Translations under genes and position numbers: made by a program
The notes under the pieces: generated by a model
What the model was told of the DNA's origin: nothing
Seen by the model: only the letters and a program-made list of their open reading frames with translations
The model's database searches: none
Part shown: positions 8,982 to 23,101 of the stretch, one piece after another
Position numbering within the stretch: the stretch's first letter is position 1
How the letters are laid out: each line of letters opens with the position of its first letter
Virus record (IMG/VR): IMGVR_UViG_3300047552_002215
Location: 1 to 23,101 of that record
DNA length: 23,101 nucleotides
Reading direction: 5' to 3' (one strand)
From: a virus

Positions 8982-10997
8982 TTAGACGGCCGCAGCCATG
9001 GTATTAACACTTGGTTTATTAGTTGCTCCAGCTACCGCACCCTCTTGTAATTGATCACCAACTCTGGTCTGTCCCAAGGCAGCCAACTTTTCGTCCATAC
9101 CTTGCAGTTCTTCCGGAACCTGATTTTGTGATGGCTGATTTCCTTTCACAAACATATTTTTAGTTTTCCAAGTACTTTCAAATTCTTCAACCGCCGTGTC
9201 TGGGTTAATCTGTCGGCCGGTTAATTTAGTAACGCCGGCAGCCTGCTCCAATTTATCAGTGAACATTACTTTTTCTAAAGCACTGCCATCACGTTCTTTT
9301 TCATTAATCATTACCTTCCATAAAGTAGAAACTGAATTAAGTAGTCCTAAATTAATAAAACTAAATCTATGCGGAGTTCCACTCTGACTCATCTCATTCT
9401 CCATCTGATAAACACTGCTCAACTCATCTTCGCTTAATGGTCTGTTAGTCATCTGAATACTCTTCTTGCCCATCTTGCCACCACCAAGATCAGCGCCATT
9501 AACTGTCCACTTATTATAAATTTCCTGAACTGCACCACTTATCGGATCAATAGTCTTTGTCACGGGCTTAGTGAAATTATCTAATAGATTATAAATTCTT
9601 AAATAAGTCGCTTCGCGCTTAGCCTTATAGAGCGATAATACCGCCTGACCAAGTTGTTTCACGAAGTTCCTTTGTTGCATTGTCAACTGAGTCGCTGTTG
9701 GTTTTCCACCCTCATCTGAGAAACCCTGAGCAATATTCGGCACACCAACAAACTGTTCCACTTCCTTCGACACTAATTGTATCATCTGGAACTCAGCACT
9801 AGTGACACCCTGATTACTTGGATTTAATATCTCAAAGTCATCTTTACTAATTCCTTGAGTCATAGCCCCAGACAACCAAATATCCTTACTTAGTATCTTG
9901 TCGCTTAATACGGCCATAGGAGGCTCTATGGCTTGTCTAAACTTCCGGACGAGCAATCTTATCATTTCATCATTTAAACCTTGTAGGACCTTAGCTGAGG
10001 CCGTCAGAGGCTTACCTAGAGCAAATGTTCTGGATATTGGCTTCAATACAATAGCCGACATGTTAAACTTATTGTCCGGCCTAATAGTCCACGGACACTT
10101 CATCGGTTTATCAAACATCGGTATCATGTTGATTAAAACCTGATATTCGTTCAAATGTGGGTTAATATAATGTATTTCCTCAACTTCTTCAGGATCTAAA
10201 GTACTAACCCTATAAAACGCCGGACCCTGAGAACTCTTGGTTTGTCCTTTTGAGACATATTTAAAATTTTCCCAACCACCATATTTAATTTTAGCCTCAT
10301 CGTAGGTCTTACGATAATACTTTAAAATATATGGTTGCTCATTGAAGCGATAGGCCGGGATATTCATATCACCTAAGAATACTTGTAATCCTGGCAAGAC
10401 TCGCTTTATCGCTCTATGAACATACTCATCCTTAACTCCTTCGCTTTCATTTGTGCCATCAACACAATTTAAGTTTGAACTGCTAAATGTTTTAATATAC
10501 TCATCAAGTTCTTCAATGAAGACAATTCTCTGAGTCAACATCTCATGTACGAACTCACGCCAGAAATCATCATCACCGCACATGCCCTCAGTTTCATTCG
10601 TCCGTTTGACTATCCCCTCAAAATTTTCCCCTAACTTATCTATTTCACTGTCATATTTATCATACGCTGTAATCTCTGGTTGCAAATTTAAAGACAGTAA
10701 TTCATTCATTACCACTTCAATTTTCTTTTCCGTAGCACCAGTAGCAATTCTTACCTCGTCATCATTCTTTTTCTTTCGTAAATAAGCATTGGCTGCTCTG
10801 CGATTCAACTCATAATCAGTTTCATAATCGAGATCATCCAATTCAACTCGTGGCTGAACCCTTTGATCGCGTGCTTGCTTTAATTTTTTCTGATAATAAA
10901 ATATCGCCTCCGCCATACCAACAGGCATTTCGTAGGTTTCAAGTTTAGTTGCTTGTTCATCGGCTAACCCGACTGAAACTTTATTAACTTCTGGCAT
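8982..10997 (-). CDS. portal protein
   Basis: From the ATG at 10997 it encodes 671 residues; an upstream TTG at 11012 was rejected because it overlaps terL and is a rare start. The portal ring forms the head vertex through which DNA is packaged. The helical N-terminus and central text (DDDFWREFVHEMLTQRIVF, later EQFVGVPNIAQGFSDEGGK then PTATQLTMQQRNFVK) match the clip/stem/crown layout of large portals. The GVPNIAQGFSDEGG segment is a recurrent portal signature. The C-terminal 40 residues (NQPSQNQVPEELQGMDEK and onward) are Gln/Ala-rich and probably flexible. A length near 670 is closer to podovirus (P22-like) portals than to the shorter siphovirus type. It follows terL with no gap. Confidence 0.85.
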   Translation of the reverse strand: MPEVNKVSVGLADEQATKLETYEMPVGMAEAIFYYQKKLKQARDQRVQPRVELDDLDYETDYELNRRAANAYLRKKKNDDEVRIATGATEKKIEVVMNELLSLNLQPEITAYDKYDSEIDKLGENFEGIVKRTNETEGMCGDDDFWREFVHEMLTQRIVFIEELDEYIKTFSSSNLNCVDGTNESEGVKDEYVHRAIKRVLPGLQVFLGDMNIPAYRFNEQPYILKYYRKTYDEAKIKYGGWENFKYVSKGQTKSSQGPAFYRVSTLDPEEVEEIHYINPHLNEYQVLINMIPMFDKPMKCPWTIRPDNKFNMSAIVLKPISRTFALGKPLTASAKVLQGLNDEMIRLLVRKFRQAIEPPMAVLSDKILSKDIWLSGAMTQGISKDDFEILNPSNQGVTSAEFQMIQLVSKEVEQFVGVPNIAQGFSDEGGKPTATQLTMQQRNFVKQLGQAVLSLYKAKREATYLRIYNLLDNFTKPVTKTIDPISGAVQEIYNKWTVNGADLGGGKMGKKSIQMTNRPLSEDELSSVYQMENEMSQSGTPHRFSFINLGLLNSVSTLWKVMINEKERDGSALEKVMFTDKLEQAAGVTKLTGRQINPDTAVEEFESTWKTKNMFVKGNQPSQNQVPEELQGMDEKLAALGQTRVGDQLQEGAVAGATNKPSVNTMAAAV

Positions 10998-10998
10998 A

Positions 10999-12597
10999 TT
11001 ATATGGCGTCAAAGACGCTTAAATTTTCTTTTTGTTGAGAATTTTCTAAGGTGATTCCTCTATCATGATTTATTACCTGTCCTGAACCTGTAATCGTTCT
11101 GACTGGAGCGCCATTATCTTCCCTGGTAAATGTTAACATTAACGCGTCCACTTCATCAGGACTATTATATCCGGCCCGGCGCATATCCAATTTACTCATG
11201 ATCTGAATCTTTCCTGTCAGCGCTCTGCGAAACCTAATAGATTTAAACTGTTCTTGCCAAATTTTATCCTGTATCAACTCACCACCAGAACGCAACCATG
11301 TTTTGAGACGGAAGTAGTTTTGCGCACGAACATTCAAGTATGTTTCTCTGTCTTTTTCTCTATGGCACCTGTCTCCGACATTGATTCCATTGACACTCAC
11401 TCCAGCCAGTGCGAGTTCTTTTGCAACATTAGCACCGGTCCCAAAGTTATCCACCCAAATATTTTCTGCTTTAACCTTAAACACTTCCATTAGAGTTAAA
11501 GTTTTTTGTGCTATTTTCTTTTCGTTTGACACTTCCTCCCTTAATACTACCTTAGCCTTAAATCTATCTCTTATCACCCATGTTGTTTTATTTGTGCCTT
11601 CGCCGGCCGGATCTATGCCCATTAACACTGGTGCTATAAAATCCTGATTGGCCACGTCTGGTATTTCCCTAATATCCTGTGGCATTAATAACGCTGTATA
11701 ACCTTTGTCATCAACACTATCAGCGCGCGGAAACATTCCCCTAACGCGAATCCTATAATCATCAGCATCCCTATTGCCACCATTTTCCTCTAATTTCCTG
11801 ACACAGTAGTCCGCTTCTACGACCGGACTCTCCTCACTACTAAACACAAATCTCTGCCATCGGTGTTTTATTGTATCGTCATTATGTGATTTAAAAAATT
11901 TACCATCTAATCTTGTTGGGTTTGAAATTAATATCATGACGTAATTTTCATTCGTCATAGAGCCCTCAGCGGTCTCATATATCTCGTCCGCGACACCAGA
12001 GGCCTCATCTACCAAAAGAAGCACATCATCGCCGTGCACGCCCGCTAGAGCCTCAGGAGCGTCCTTCTTAGCTGTCTTAGCGCGTGCAAACCACTCCATC
12101 GGCTTTTCCACTATTCTAATGTGGCTAGTCTGTATATCAAACTGATTTTTTATTCTTGACGGCAGAGCACCAATCCATCTCGATAATTCCTTCCATAGAA
12201 CATCATACATCTGCTCTTTACTCGGTGCCGTACACGCAATCTGTGAAAGATAATGTGAATATAAAAACCAAATCAATATCATCGCCAGTACGCAACTTTT
12301 ACCTATACCGTGGCCAGAGGCAATCGAAATTCTGCGTTTTCCGTTATTATTTACCGCGTCCCGTACTGCTAGAAGTATCAACCATTGCTGCCAAGTGATG
12401 TGTTTTCCCTTTAAAAACGTTTTAAAGTGCGTATTTCGTATCTCGTCGTACTGTTTATTTTTTATATAGCCTGTTACTTCTTCTAAATACTGTTCCTTTA
12501 TTGGTTGCGGAACGAGACCCCACATTATTTCAATAAAATAAAGCGGATCTTTTGAAAATTTTAAATATTCCTGTAGTTCTTCATTGGTTTTCTTCAT
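10999..12597 (-). CDS. terL: terminase large subunit
   Basis: The ATG at 12597 gives 532 residues; a longer frame to 12642 would overlap terS by 62 bases. The packaging ATPase shows Walker A SGHGIGKS (94-101), Walker B LLLVDEA (about 193-199) and a coupling motif MILISNPT (about 221-228). The C-terminal RNase-H-like nuclease that cuts the concatemer has three acids: D329 in MGIDPAGEG, D383 in IWVDNFG and D484 in DEVDALM. All essential residues are present. It overlaps the terS stop by 17 bases and the portal gene follows directly, so the three are probably one transcript. Confidence 0.95.
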   Translation of the reverse strand: MKKTNEELQEYLKFSKDPLYFIEIMWGLVPQPIKEQYLEEVTGYIKNKQYDEIRNTHFKTFLKGKHITWQQWLILLAVRDAVNNNGKRRISIASGHGIGKSCVLAMILIWFLYSHYLSQIACTAPSKEQMYDVLWKELSRWIGALPSRIKNQFDIQTSHIRIVEKPMEWFARAKTAKKDAPEALAGVHGDDVLLLVDEASGVADEIYETAEGSMTNENYVMILISNPTRLDGKFFKSHNDDTIKHRWQRFVFSSEESPVVEADYCVRKLEENGGNRDADDYRIRVRGMFPRADSVDDKGYTALLMPQDIREIPDVANQDFIAPVLMGIDPAGEGTNKTTWVIRDRFKAKVVLREEVSNEKKIAQKTLTLMEVFKVKAENIWVDNFGTGANVAKELALAGVSVNGINVGDRCHREKDRETYLNVRAQNYFRLKTWLRSGGELIQDKIWQEQFKSIRFRRALTGKIQIMSKLDMRRAGYNSPDEVDALMLTFTREDNGAPVRTITGSGQVINHDRGITLENSQQKENLSVFDAI

Positions 12598-13087
12598 CAG
12601 TTTCTTCGTCATCATCAATAATTTCGCCTTCAATAGGCTCAATTATAATTTCTGACGATAAAATTTCTTTGTTTTTTTGTTCTTCTTCGCGTATTTTCTT
12701 AGCTTCTTGTGCTAATTCCGCTAAAGACAGGCCATCAATAGTGTGATCCACAGTAGTTTTTTCCGGATAACCTAAAGCCTTCAACATATTCCAATTAAAC
12801 GTTGAATTTTTTTTAGTATCTCCACCAGTTTCATAATATTCTGAGATATAAGCTAGTGCGCGAGCAATTATTTGCGCTTTTTGTTGCTCTCCTTCCTTTA
12901 CGGCGTCAATATTGACGTTTGCGTAATCAAAAATTTTACTTGGAGTTAAGTTTAAAACCAAAGCAAGCCCAGCAACTGTGGGCGTTTCATCATTTTCTTT
13001 TATTTTGTGGAAATAATCATAAATGATATTTCCAACATCGGATGGGGAGAGCTCTTGCGGTTGTAAAGCTAAACTAAATTCCTGCAT
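12581..13087 (-). CDS. terS: terminase small subunit
   Basis: This 168-residue DNA-recognition subunit has a predicted helix-turn-helix in the N-terminal half (TPTVAGLALVLNLTPSKIFDY, about 36-56), the usual terS layout for recognising the packaging site. A helical oligomerisation region follows (about 65-110). The C-terminus is very acidic (GEIIDDDEETDEENQ), as in many terS proteins that contact TerL. It is the first gene of the leftward operon, starting 142 bases after the predicted transcription start. The family call rests on the HTH, size and position upstream of terL. Confidence 0.8.
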   Translation of the reverse strand: MQEFSLALQPQELSPSDVGNIIYDYFHKIKENDETPTVAGLALVLNLTPSKIFDYANVNIDAVKEGEQQKAQIIARALAYISEYYETGGDTKKNSTFNWNMLKALGYPEKTTVDHTIDGLSLAELAQEAKKIREEEQKNKEILSSEIIIEPIEGEIIDDDEETDEENQ

Positions 13088-20739: not shown

Positions 20740-20850
20740 ATGAACTTCTTATGCAAACTAGGCCTCCATTGGTGGCTAAAAATATCAAGTACCGCCTATC
20801 ACGGACCATACAAAGCCTGTCGGCGTTGCGGTAAAAAGAAATATATATGA
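20740..20850 (+). CDS. 36-residue zinc-binding mini-protein (DUF1660-like)
   Basis: MNFLCKLGLHWWLKISSTAY is followed by HGPYKACRRCGKKKYI. Cys5, His10, Cys27 and Cys30 form a probable zinc site, with the CxRCG ending typical of DUF1660 prophage proteins. Its TGA overlaps the exonuclease ATG (ATGA at 20847-20850), so translation is coupled. The role of this family is not known. The hairpin before it may set its expression. Confidence 0.65.
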   Translation: MNFLCKLGLHWWLKISSTAYHGPYKACRRCGKKKYI

Positions 20851-21623
20851 AACTCACAAAATCCAATTATTACTCACTCACTAATAAATATATTTCTAAC
20901 TCAAAGTTAGGTGACTTTATCAAAGATAAAAATTATTTTTATCAGAAACATATTGCCGGAACTATACCCCACGAAGTTACTGACCCCATGATTATTGGCA
21001 GTGCTGTTGATACATGGCTCACACAAGGAGAAAAAAAATTCCGCGAAGATTATATCTTAGTTTCGCGCCGGAGTGATAAAGATGGCGACTATGAACATCA
21101 GCTTAATCCTACAATGTATGCCAAGATTGAGAAAATGTGCCGGAGAGTTGAGTCACAGGATGCTTATAAACAACTCAAAGGATCTAAGAGGCAGGTTATA
21201 TTACAAAAAGACATACCACTTGGTCAGTTTGAAGGTATTTGTGGAATGGTAGACTTCTTAAAAATCAAAGATGATGTAGCTTATATTATTGATTTAAAAA
21301 CGTCAGAGACTATTGATACTAAAAAATATCACTATCATGCTCTTTCCTATAACTATTATAGACAGATGGCATTTTATACTTTATTAGTAAAACATACTTA
21401 TCCGGAGGTTCAGGAAGTTGTTTGTCGGCACTTAGTGGTTGAGAAAGATCCTAATGAAATTTATACCTGCCGGACTTTTATTTTGTCTAATGAGCGCATT
21501 GAAGAAGAAATAGATTTCATTAATCTAAAGCTTAATGAAATACAACTAGAAACCAAGTGGCTCCCAAACAACTGCTCTTGGGATCAAGCAGAAACTATCG
21601 GCGCCCTAACCGAAGAATTTTAA
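20847..21623 (+). CDS. PD-(D/E)XK nuclease, RecB/Cas4/exonuclease VIII type
   Basis: This 258-residue protein shows the catalytic set D136 in GMVDFLKI, D149 and K151 in IIDLKTSE, and QMAFY at 173-177 (the QxxxY motif of the RecB/Cas4 group). The N-terminal GSAVD at 51-55 takes the place of the GxxxH/D helix motif. There is no four-Cys iron-sulfur cluster as in Cas4, so a phage recombination exonuclease is more likely. It is flanked by an OB-fold gene and NinG, as in recombination modules. No single-strand annealing protein is seen in the window. Confidence 0.85.
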   Translation: MKLTKSNYYSLTNKYISNSKLGDFIKDKNYFYQKHIAGTIPHEVTDPMIIGSAVDTWLTQGEKKFREDYILVSRRSDKDGDYEHQLNPTMYAKIEKMCRRVESQDAYKQLKGSKRQVILQKDIPLGQFEGICGMVDFLKIKDDVAYIIDLKTSETIDTKKYHYHALSYNYYRQMAFYTLLVKHTYPEVQEVVCRHLVVEKDPNEIYTCRTFILSNERIEEEIDFINLKLNEIQLETKWLPNNCSWDQAETIGALTEEF

Positions 21624-21633
21624 TTTTAATAAT

Positions 21634-21699
21634 ATGGAACTAATAATGTTTATTTGTATTGGTCTATTAATTTGGATCGCTGTAATAATAAATTTATGA
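21634..21699 (+). CDS. 21-residue hydrophobic peptide
   Basis: ATG 21634 encodes MELIMFICIGLLIWIAVIIN and one more Leu, essentially one membrane helix. The stop TGA lies inside the first 40-bp repeat and overlaps the next ATG. Whether it is translated is uncertain, but spacing and coupling fit. Confidence 0.45.
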   Translation: MELIMFICIGLLIWIAVIINL

Positions 21700-21729
21700 A
21701 CCCATTAGGCTATATAAAATTAAATAAAA
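21690..21729 (+). repeat. 40-bp direct repeat, left copy
   Basis: These 40 bases recur at 22866-22905 with one mismatch (21710 C, 22886 A). Both copies contain ATGAACCCATTAGG and start a reading frame MNPLGYIKLNK. The two copies are 1176 bp apart and enclose the C5-methyltransferase and ninG genes. Confidence 0.9.
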
Positions 21730-21740
21730 AAGTATTATGA
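21696..21740 (+). pseudogene. 14-codon fragment, duplicated 5' end of the last gene
   Basis: The frame MNPLGYIKLNKKVL stops at a TGA that overlaps the next ATG (21737). Its first 11 residues are identical to the start of the gene at 22872, after which it diverges. It is therefore probably a remnant of that gene left by an insertion or duplication, now serving at most as a coupling leader for the methyltransferase. Confidence 0.65.
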
Positions 21741-22351
21741 AGATATTAAACCTTTACGCAGGAATAGGTGGAAATAGAAAACTATGGGGTGATGACCACC
21801 AAATTACTGCCGTTGAATATAAGACAGAGATAGCTAAAATTTATCAAGACTTCTTTCCTAACGACACAGTGATAGTGGCTGACGCTCATCAATACCTTTT
21901 AGACCACTTCGAAGAGTTTGATTTTATTTGGAGTAGCCCACCTTGCCCAAGCCATAGCCATATAAGAAAAGAATTAGCCGTTGAGGCGCGGGGACAAAAT
22001 AAACCTATTTATCCTGATATGAAACTTTACGAAGAGATACTTTTATTACAAGGATATTTTAAAGGCAAGTTTTGTGTTGAAAATGTAGTTAGTTGGTATA
22101 AACCATTAATAGCTCCCCAAGAATTAAATAAACATTACTTTTGGTGCAACTTTCTTGTTAATAGATTTAGTATTAAAAGTCGTGGACACCAATTAGATAT
22201 TAAAAAGCTTGAAGAATTTAAGGGTTTTGACCTTTCTAAATATAGTGGAGTTGATAAACGCTTGTTGCTTAGGAATTGTGTTGAACCTGAAACAGGGCTT
22301 CATATTTTAGAATGTGCTTTAGGACTTAATAAACAAAAGTCATTAATTTAA
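21737..22351 (+). CDS. C5 DNA cytosine methyltransferase, short, no clear target domain
   Basis: This 204-residue protein shows motif I NLYAGIGG (5-12), E27 at the end of strand 2, motif IV SSPPCPSHS with catalytic C70, and motif VI VENV (114-117). A C-terminal RNCVEPETGLHILECAL replaces the usual motif IX-X text. It would methylate cytosine in DNA. The length is well below the usual 300 or more residues, and the target-recognition region (after about 130) is reduced, so specificity may be relaxed or unusual. It may shield phage DNA from host restriction. Its ATG overlaps the fragment upstream, and it lies inside the repeat-bounded cassette. Confidence 0.85.
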   Translation: MKILNLYAGIGGNRKLWGDDHQITAVEYKTEIAKIYQDFFPNDTVIVADAHQYLLDHFEEFDFIWSSPPCPSHSHIRKELAVEARGQNKPIYPDMKLYEEILLLQGYFKGKFCVENVVSWYKPLIAPQELNKHYFWCNFLVNRFSIKSRGHQLDIKKLEEFKGFDLSKYSGVDKRLLLRNCVEPETGLHILECALGLNKQKSLI

Positions 22352-22359
22352 AAAATAAT

Positions 22360-22875
22360 ATGGTAAAGACTTGTCGCTTTAACCAATGCCCAGAACCAAG
22401 ATACTATAACTCCTCACTCTGTAAAAAACACTACTATCAACATCAGAAAGACCTTAAAAAAGAAAAAGCCATTAAAAAGTTAGAGAATAAGAAACTCACT
22501 AAGAAGTATCAAGAGAGTATTAAGAAGACGCTTTTTAATAAGGCTTGGAAACTTATCAGTGAAGAAGTTAGGAAGTCAGGAGCAGATGAGTTCGGAATTC
22601 AAACCTGCTATACGTGTGGAGACCGGAAACCTTGGAAAGAGATGCACTGCTCTCATAGATATCACGGAAGATTAGACCTTGATTACAGGAATTTAAAGCC
22701 CTCGTGCGTATGTTGTAATACTTATTTGCACGGTAACCTCGGAAATTATGAGCGTCACCTTATCAAAGATTACGGGCTGGAGTGGGCTGAACAACTAGCA
22801 AGAGATGCCAACCAACATAAAGGTTACTCACTCGAAGACCTTAAAAGAATAATTAATGAGCTTCAAAATTTATGA
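22360..22875 (+). CDS. ninG: NinG/Rap-like recombination protein
   Basis: This 171-residue protein has an N-terminal zinc knuckle (C5, C10, C21, H24), a basic helix (about 30-65), then the NinG-type nuclease-like finger: C83 and C86 in CYTCGDRKPW, C97 and H99 in MHCSHRYHGRLDLDYRN, and the SCVCCN group at 115-120. It continues HGNLGNYERHLIKDYGLEWA as in lambda NinG. In lambda, NinG (Rap) stimulates recombination with Orf and Red, which fits the exonuclease nearby. Its last codons (Asn-Leu-stop) are part of the right 40-bp repeat, overlapping the next gene by 4 bases. Confidence 0.85.
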   Translation: MVKTCRFNQCPEPRYYNSSLCKKHYYQHQKDLKKEKAIKKLENKKLTKKYQESIKKTLFNKAWKLISEEVRKSGADEFGIQTCYTCGDRKPWKEMHCSHRYHGRLDLDYRNLKPSCVCCNTYLHGNLGNYERHLIKDYGLEWAEQLARDANQHKGYSLEDLKRIINELQNL

Positions 22876-22905
22876 ACCCATTAGGATATATAAAATTAAA
22901 TAAAA
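22866..22905 (+). repeat. 40-bp direct repeat, right copy
   Basis: Second copy of the repeat at 21690-21729, with one mismatch. It spans the ninG stop and the start of the last gene. Here the reading frame continues beyond the repeat, unlike the left copy, so this is the intact gene start. Confidence 0.9.
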
Positions 22906-23101
22906 GACGAGGTTTAGAAGATATTAAAAAGATGGTAGCGGAGAATGATTGGAATAATGGAGTTGAAGATACTGGTTATACTTCTGTGGACATCCTAACC
23001 AAAGAAGATTGGAATGTTACAGAGTATTTAACTCCTTCAGGTGGATTGATAAAGATTTCCAATAACGATGAGTGGTGGAAGCTTAAGCCAATGCCTAAAG
23101 A
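22872..23101 (+). CDS. unknown early protein, C-terminus cut by window edge
   Basis: The frame opens MNPLGYIKLNKRRGLEDIKK and stays open to the end of the window, 76 full codons. Further text is DWNNGVEDTGYTSVDILTKE and SNNDEWWKLKPMP, with no motif I recognise. Its start is coupled to the ninG stop (ATGA), and its first 40 bases belong to the right direct repeat. A truncated copy of its start lies upstream of the methyltransferase. Confidence 0.6.
   Translation, partial: MNPLGYIKLNKRRGLEDIKKMVAENDWNNGVEDTGYTSVDILTKEDWNVTEYLTPSGGLIKISNNDEWWKLKPMPK

Follow-up and report, generated by a model that had tools for sequence, protein, structure and literature searches.

A methyltransferase-ninG gene pair between two copies of one gene start in a phage early operon

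Results

A C5-cytosine-type DNA methyltransferase (MTase) gene and ninG lie between two nearly identical copies of the start of one gene, here named Y, in the early operon of a phage, and on balance we favor the explanation that the pair is an accessory cassette inserted between the short hydrophobic ORF TM21 and Y (Table 1). The DNA analysed, referred to as the window, is a complete IMG/VR virus record of 23,101 bp. Its structural genes are on the minus strand, with the terminase gene at 10999-13087, and its early genes are on the plus strand from 13362 onwards. Since the contig ends 196 nt past the right repeat, Y, which extends for at least 76 codons to the contig end, is incomplete. Beside the terminase gene, a 676-aa ORF (8982-11012, minus strand) occupies the portal position and has no PHROG match. 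The half-site TTGTTTAATNTTAGCCA occurs three times (14098 and 14193 on the plus strand, 15071 on the minus strand) within a 1.2-kb stretch between the divergent operons that holds no ORFs of 60 aa or more.

Table 1. Coordinates of the cassette, its flanking genes and the repeated sequences in the window
Feature	Position	Strand	Remarks
DUF3799/RecE-like PD-(D/E)XK exonuclease (exo)	20847-21623	+	just 5′ of the cassette; last gene syntenic with G049
TM21, 21-codon hydrophobic ORF, MELIMFICIGLLIWIAVIINL	21634-21699	+	stop lies in the repeat; overlaps the mini-ORF as ATGA
Left copy of the 40-nt repeat	21690-21729	+	bases -6 to -1 (initiation region), start codon, Y codons 2-11
Mini-ORF (stub), 14 codons, MNPLGYIKLNKKVL then stop	21696-21740	+	truncated Y start; TGA overlaps the MTase ATG
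C5-cytosine-type DNA methyltransferase, 204 aa	21737-22351	+	PF00145, 4e-7
GAAGATATTAAA, left occurrence, at the MTase start	21739-21750	+	counterpart of 22917-22928
NinG/Rap-like recombination endonuclease	22360-22875	+	PF05766, 3e-11; PHROG NinG/Rap, 2e-15
Right copy of the 40-nt repeat	22866-22905	+	start of full-length gene Y
Gene Y, orphan, MNPLGYIKLNKRRGLEDIKK...	22872-23101	+	ATGA overlap with ninG; runs off the contig end
GAAGATATTAAA, right occurrence, Y codons 16-19	22917-22928	+	counterpart of 21739-21750

The repeat pair and its contents

A sequence-only reading of this DNA had claimed that two 40-nt repeats with one mismatch, 1176 nt apart, enclose exactly a C5-MTase gene and ninG, and both points held: the direct repeats are identical at 39 of 40 positions with a spacing of 1176, and between them lie these two genes and nothing else. 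Each copy comprises six bases 5′ of the start, the start codon and 11 codons of Y, so that the same protein indeed begins twice, as had been stated, and the sole mismatch is synonymous (Gly, GGC/GGA). The left copy runs into a stop after 14 codons and the right copy opens the long gene, and the genes upstream of the two copies, the 21-codon ORF and NinG, both end in Asn-Leu-stop inside the repeat; these features were likewise found as first described. The stop of the stub and the start of the MTase overlap as ATGA.

The repeat begins at position -6 relative to the start codon, one of the two most conserved bases in the initiation regions of this phage (A at -6 in 27 and T at -1 in 28 of 32 gene starts), and thus carries the start signal plus 11 codons. 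The same 32 starts are without a Shine-Dalgarno sequence, and their T at -1 is unusual. A Bacteroidota host is suggested by A at -6 and at -12/-11 and by the missing Shine-Dalgarno, but A at -3, the main determinant according to PMC6847099, is not enriched, and this assignment is at most tentative.

Twenty first-order Markov simulations of the window yielded no repeat longer than 22 nt when one mismatch was allowed, compared with the 40 nt observed, so that chance does not account for the pair. The longest exact runs shared by the copies, 20 and 19 nt, fall below the minimal pairing lengths of 23-27 bp for Red-beta and 31-34 bp for RecA (PMC3945230), and loss of the cassette by recombination should therefore now be rare. 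With one change in 40 nt, synonymous positions of 11 codons included, it is plausible that the event was recent.

Past both copies the 12-nt sequence GAAGATATTAAA recurs, at distances of 9 nt (left) and 11 nt (right) and hence with an offset of 2 nt; the probability of a match at such an offset, computed post hoc, is about 1e-4 to 4e-4. This sequence may be a microhomology used at the joint. Its occurrence after both copies leaves two histories, in which either a cassette was inserted into the Y start or a patch of about 40 bp of Y was placed before an existing MTase.

The two cassette genes

The first gene is predicted to encode a member of a short, divergent family of C5-cytosine DNA methyltransferases (PF00145). 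Its score of 30 bits exceeds the PF00145 cut-off of 22 and lies below the NCBIfam dcm cut-off of 101; the match spans only positions 1-84 of the 324 in the profile (the N-terminal half), and neither a target-recognition domain nor a whole-profile PF00145 match was found in it. Of the SPPC and EN(V) motifs, EN and SPPC are invariant across 15 aligned members. The predicted fold (pLDDT 87) has DNMT2, M.HaeIII and DNMT1 as its best PDB matches (E 1e-6 to 1e-4), with a TM of only about 0.4 because the protein is short. NinG exceeds the curated PF05766 score (44 bits versus 25.4) and matches PHROG 5034 (2e-15). The C-termini of many MTase family members (e.g. L003, L004, L036, L055, L079 and L277) read QxxLF or nearly so, reminiscent of the motif that binds the bacterial sliding clamp; as a general feature of the MTase this tail was rejected, being present in only 19 of 76 by a simple pattern.

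The G+C contents of the MTase gene (34%) and ninG (38%) do not differ clearly from those of their neighbours. In a scan confined to sigma-70-like promoters, 8 matches were obtained against a shuffled expectation of 8.2, and the plus strand has no terminator-like site; judged from this layout, expression of the cassette seems to rely on read-through and coupling. A transposon with a target-site duplication was rejected, since the profile matches of the two cassette genes include no transposase, no substantial terminal inverted repeats are found at either cassette edge, and the repeats, 40 nt long in the window and 74 nt in the contig L051 described below, have ends that follow a gene start and not a constant length.

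Search for relatives

IMG/VR, GTDB genomes, INPHARED and 775 genomes of two phyla yielded no relative that carries Y, TM21 or the junction, the last set being 380 Patescibacteria (the phylum of L277) and 395 Bacteroidota (the phylum of L286) scanned with Y, and no homologue of Y was detectable in any of these collections. Scans of IMG/VR, GTDB and INPHARED with Y, exo, primase, ninG or the repeat pattern returned no close relatives, and a degenerate pattern of the repeat, by which only near-identical peptides are detectable, had no match in IMG/VR. An empty site of this phage, with TM21 joined directly to Y, was not found in the databases searched.

The terminase profile returned one long relative, G049 (L094; 47,851 bp; TerL 44%), which keeps primase, the CHC2 protein, the HTH protein, the acidic ORF, a p145-like gene and exo in the order of the window. 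Its exo is followed by a helicase, and TM21, MTase, ninG and Y are not there. Further along, it also contains a decayed duplication array (L171:119-2300) with three copies of one gene start at L171:157, 601 and 1449, the first of which is a 26-codon stub ahead of a YopX-family phage gene; the array has two such YopX-family genes, which are paralogous, and a Dam-type MTase; the position given to the array assumes a circular record, as both ends share a GTCGNG repeat. Though not an empty site, the array demonstrates that gene starts do become duplicated in this region of a genome related to the window phage. Just 5′ of the G049 primase (L170:4013-4475) are seven GGCTAATNTTAGCC-like palindromes; these and the TTGTTTAATNTTAGCCA sites of the window are probably operator or replication sites common to the two phages.

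A second contig and the MTase family

The anatomy of the window recurs in an unrelated contig, L051, which has a stub (MSEEKNYINGIILKGKT..), an MTase of the same family, a 314-aa gene and a full-length gene Z (MQEEKNYINGIILKEKT..). The repeat of L051 is about 74 nt long and includes the Shine-Dalgarno sequence: its stub has AAGGAG, and its MTase is without a Shine-Dalgarno of its own. In both the window and L051, the gene whose start is copied is exactly the one after the cassette.

As no relative of Y was found for the window phage, the MTase family, which is common (518 IMG/VR stretches), was used as the test object. Among Gordonia phages, Margaret has the MTase between terS and gene 3, and Button and Jamzy are without it; their empty site is a coupled stop-start joint, TGATG. 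The insert of Margaret is 624 bp long and consists of the MTase only; CTGA is present at either edge, and the stop codon of the MTase overlaps the next ATG. The Vibrio phages 1.082.O and 1.182.O have a common 870-bp block (a 58-aa ORF plus the MTase) with 95% identity between unrelated flanks, the right edge of which is the start codon of the next gene. In Vibrio phages 1.074.O and 1.176.O the MTase is absent and the 58-aa gene runs straight to the next gene, which represents the empty site of 1.082.O, where the MTase is inserted at the 3′ end of the 58-aa gene with an A-run as the joint. The clean insertions in Gordonia and Vibrio phages have joints of just 4-9 nt, without a duplicated gene start. 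In the Flavobacterium phages hemulen and lillamy, one site is occupied by different MTase modules, and native MTase starts (ATGAAGATATTAAA) are present in the unrelated loci L011, L072 and L079.

In Vibrio phages 1.182.O and 1.147.O ninG is also in the MTase region. The MTase and NinG are directly adjacent, in either order, in only 2 of 80 family loci and hence do not form a known fixed unit. In Vibrio phage 1.165.O (L305:302-919), the 58-aa ORF and a coil-containing ORF are fused in one frame at the site where the MTase is inserted; the two are separate in 1.074.O. On a Woesearchaeota contig (L278:5453-6004) the MTase adjoins an ORF resembling, by eye, an IS200-type TnpA transposase. A preference of the MTase for ATGA joints was considered, as its start overlaps the upstream ORF in 38 of 56 members, but was discounted because the MKIL/MRIL start contains ATGA in any case.

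Repeat statistics

Repeats between the upstream flank and downstream DNA (score of at least 20) were present at 6 of 79 MTase loci versus about 20 of 2275 other genes, the latter denominator being approximate because MTases were removed from it by eye. This test was devised after the window had been seen; without the window and L051 the count is 4 of 77 (Fisher p = 0.007), with 18 validation loci added it is 5 of 95 (p = 0.003), and the validation set alone gives 1 of 18, which is not significant (p = 0.15). The repeat cases include L007, L010 and L015, in which gene ends and not starts are duplicated. L256 and L223 were discarded as parallels since their repeats sit in repetitive arrays, as were L196, L200 and L267, where downstream similarity scores trace the repeats to paralogous genes. 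Gene starts are not a general hot spot for such repeats: among 72 pairs in 2.7 Mb of phage DNA, 17 touch starts, compared with 14.4 ± 3.3 under random placement.

Alternative histories of the repeat pair

The main rival to insertion is a templated patch, which would leave nearly the same sequence. The MTase and ninG would already have been present and TM21 in direct coupling with the MTase (AATTTATGAAGATATTAAA); a switch of the nascent strand at AAATTTATGA to the Y start, in the course of replication or repair, would have copied about 40 nt before a return near GAAGATATTAAA. One mutational event would suffice, the required microhomology is at both ends (AAATTTATGA and GAAGATATTAAA), the flanks of 21696-21736 alone let TM21 end in Asn-Leu-stop and overlap the MTase as ATGA, and the MTase would retain the native start of its family, ATGAAGATATTAAA. 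However, copying up to GAAGATATTAAA first removes the MTase start codon, and later changes are needed (AAGTATTAT versus GACGAGGTTTA). Moreover, that the copied start in the window and in L051 is exactly that of the post-cassette gene is something that insertion needs and a patch does not, and we consider the patch rather doubtful. Copying in the reverse direction is unlikely: the stub and the MTase start would have been placed before an older, shorter Y beginning at the internal ATG at 22932 (MVAENDW...), giving Y a new N-terminus. GAAGATATTAAA within Y would then be the copied MTase start, and an in-frame ATG does follow right after this similar stretch, but fusion of the frames takes a net +2 indel plus several further changes although 39 of the 40 flanking bases are unchanged, and the same shape of the downstream long gene in L051 would call for the event twice in that direction.

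Duplication of a multi-gene unit ending in Y, with the first Y subsequently replaced or truncated, has a precedent in the G049 array with its three start copies and paralogous YopX-family genes. No paralogous remnants lie beside the repeats of the window, however, and the genes 5′ of the two copies, TM21 and NinG, are unrelated, so we give this history little credence. Least probable is an assembly artefact, in which contig-terminal sequence would have been wrongly joined at the repeat, as might be suspected from a contig that stops 196 nt after the right copy. De Bruijn assemblers usually work with a minimum of 21-mers, and the longest exact identity of 20 nt is below that size; the frames at both junctions are coherent and coupled, and the same anatomy occurs independently in L051.

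Discussion

Insertion of the cassette, the history that we favor, could have proceeded as follows. Recombination would have joined the Y start (at about codon 11-20) to a point just 5′ of the MTase start, through phage exonuclease/annealing functions acting on very short homology (an A-run or GAAGATATTAAA); the adjacent RecE-like exonuclease and NinG itself are candidate enzymes by their predicted families. The right side of the incoming segment would have carried, or been joined to, a complete Y including its initiation region, which would leave Y intact and a 14-codon Y stub before the MTase. With the initiation region of Y (AAATTT-ATG) and the ATGA overlap, the stub could pass ribosomes on to the MTase through termination-reinitiation; the truncated start would possibly serve as a translational leader, and the ATGA geometry suggests that translation of the MTase is coupled to the Y start signal. 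We infer the direction, insertion rather than patch, along with this scheme. Several results count against it: neither an empty site nor a Y homologue in the databases searched, short joints and no start duplication in the Gordonia and Vibrio insertions, the validation set taken alone, no general enrichment of repeats at gene starts, unremarkable G+C contents, and the rarity of adjacent MTase and NinG.

The sequence-only reading had proposed an insertion for which a coupled junction served as the joint. By analogy this is well supported, namely by TGATG in Button and Jamzy versus the filled site of Margaret, by Vibrio phage 1.082.O versus 1.074.O and 1.176.O and by the anatomy of L051; for the window phage itself, with Y, TM21 and the junction absent from the genomes scanned for relatives, the insertion is no more than probable. 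A more general idea, which we advance only tentatively, is that the small, widespread MTase family is a recurrent invader of translationally coupled joints and that, on landing at a gene start, it leaves the truncated start of the displaced gene as a coupled leader providing a ribosome entry site, with the gene regenerated downstream, as in the window and, independently, in L051.

The way in which compact phage operons take up accessory genes while translation stays unbroken has mostly been inferred from old, blurred joints. The window offers a fresh duplication of a 5′ start, and is accompanied by L051 and by empty and filled sites resolved to the base in cultured Gordonia and Vibrio phages, and laboratory phages now allow direct tests of the insertion process and of the idea of the stub as a leader.

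Short repeats at module joints are known (PMC3029335 and the lambdoid boundary sequences cited there). In the mycobacteriophages Island3 and Brujita (PMC3029335, Fig. 5C), as in the window, an extra gene lies between two copies of one sequence, which in those phages is about 60 bp long and shared by neighbouring gene ends; a relative has one recombinant copy, and recombination at short repeats was proposed. There, however, 3′ ends are duplicated and the close single-copy relative is known, whereas the window has a duplicated 5′ start with its initiation region and lacks a known relative of that kind. The lambdoid boundary sequences (Clark et al. 2001; Susskind and Botstein 1978), as far as PMC3029335 describes them, resemble the window in having repeats at gene boundaries, in the ninG region, and were proposed as seeds of modular exchange; in the window, by contrast, both copies are in one genome, one of them a dead-end stub, and no second phage shared the boundary sequence in the IMG/VR scan for near-identical peptides. 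Like morons and other single-gene insertions, members of the MTase family are present in some phages and absent from close relatives at one joint (Gordonia and Vibrio phages), but the window cassette differs from morons in that no sigma-70-like promoter above chance and no plus-strand terminator of its own were found in it. The Start-Associated Sequences of Cluster K mycobacteriophages (PMC3203893) are also repeated at several gene starts, but they lie 5′ of the start codon of many genes, whereas the two copies in the window extend 34 nt into the coding region from the start codon. A duplicated gene start with a coupled stub, seen twice with one MTase family, is a variant not found in the literature searched, and the arrangement in the window is a variant of known phage mosaicism.
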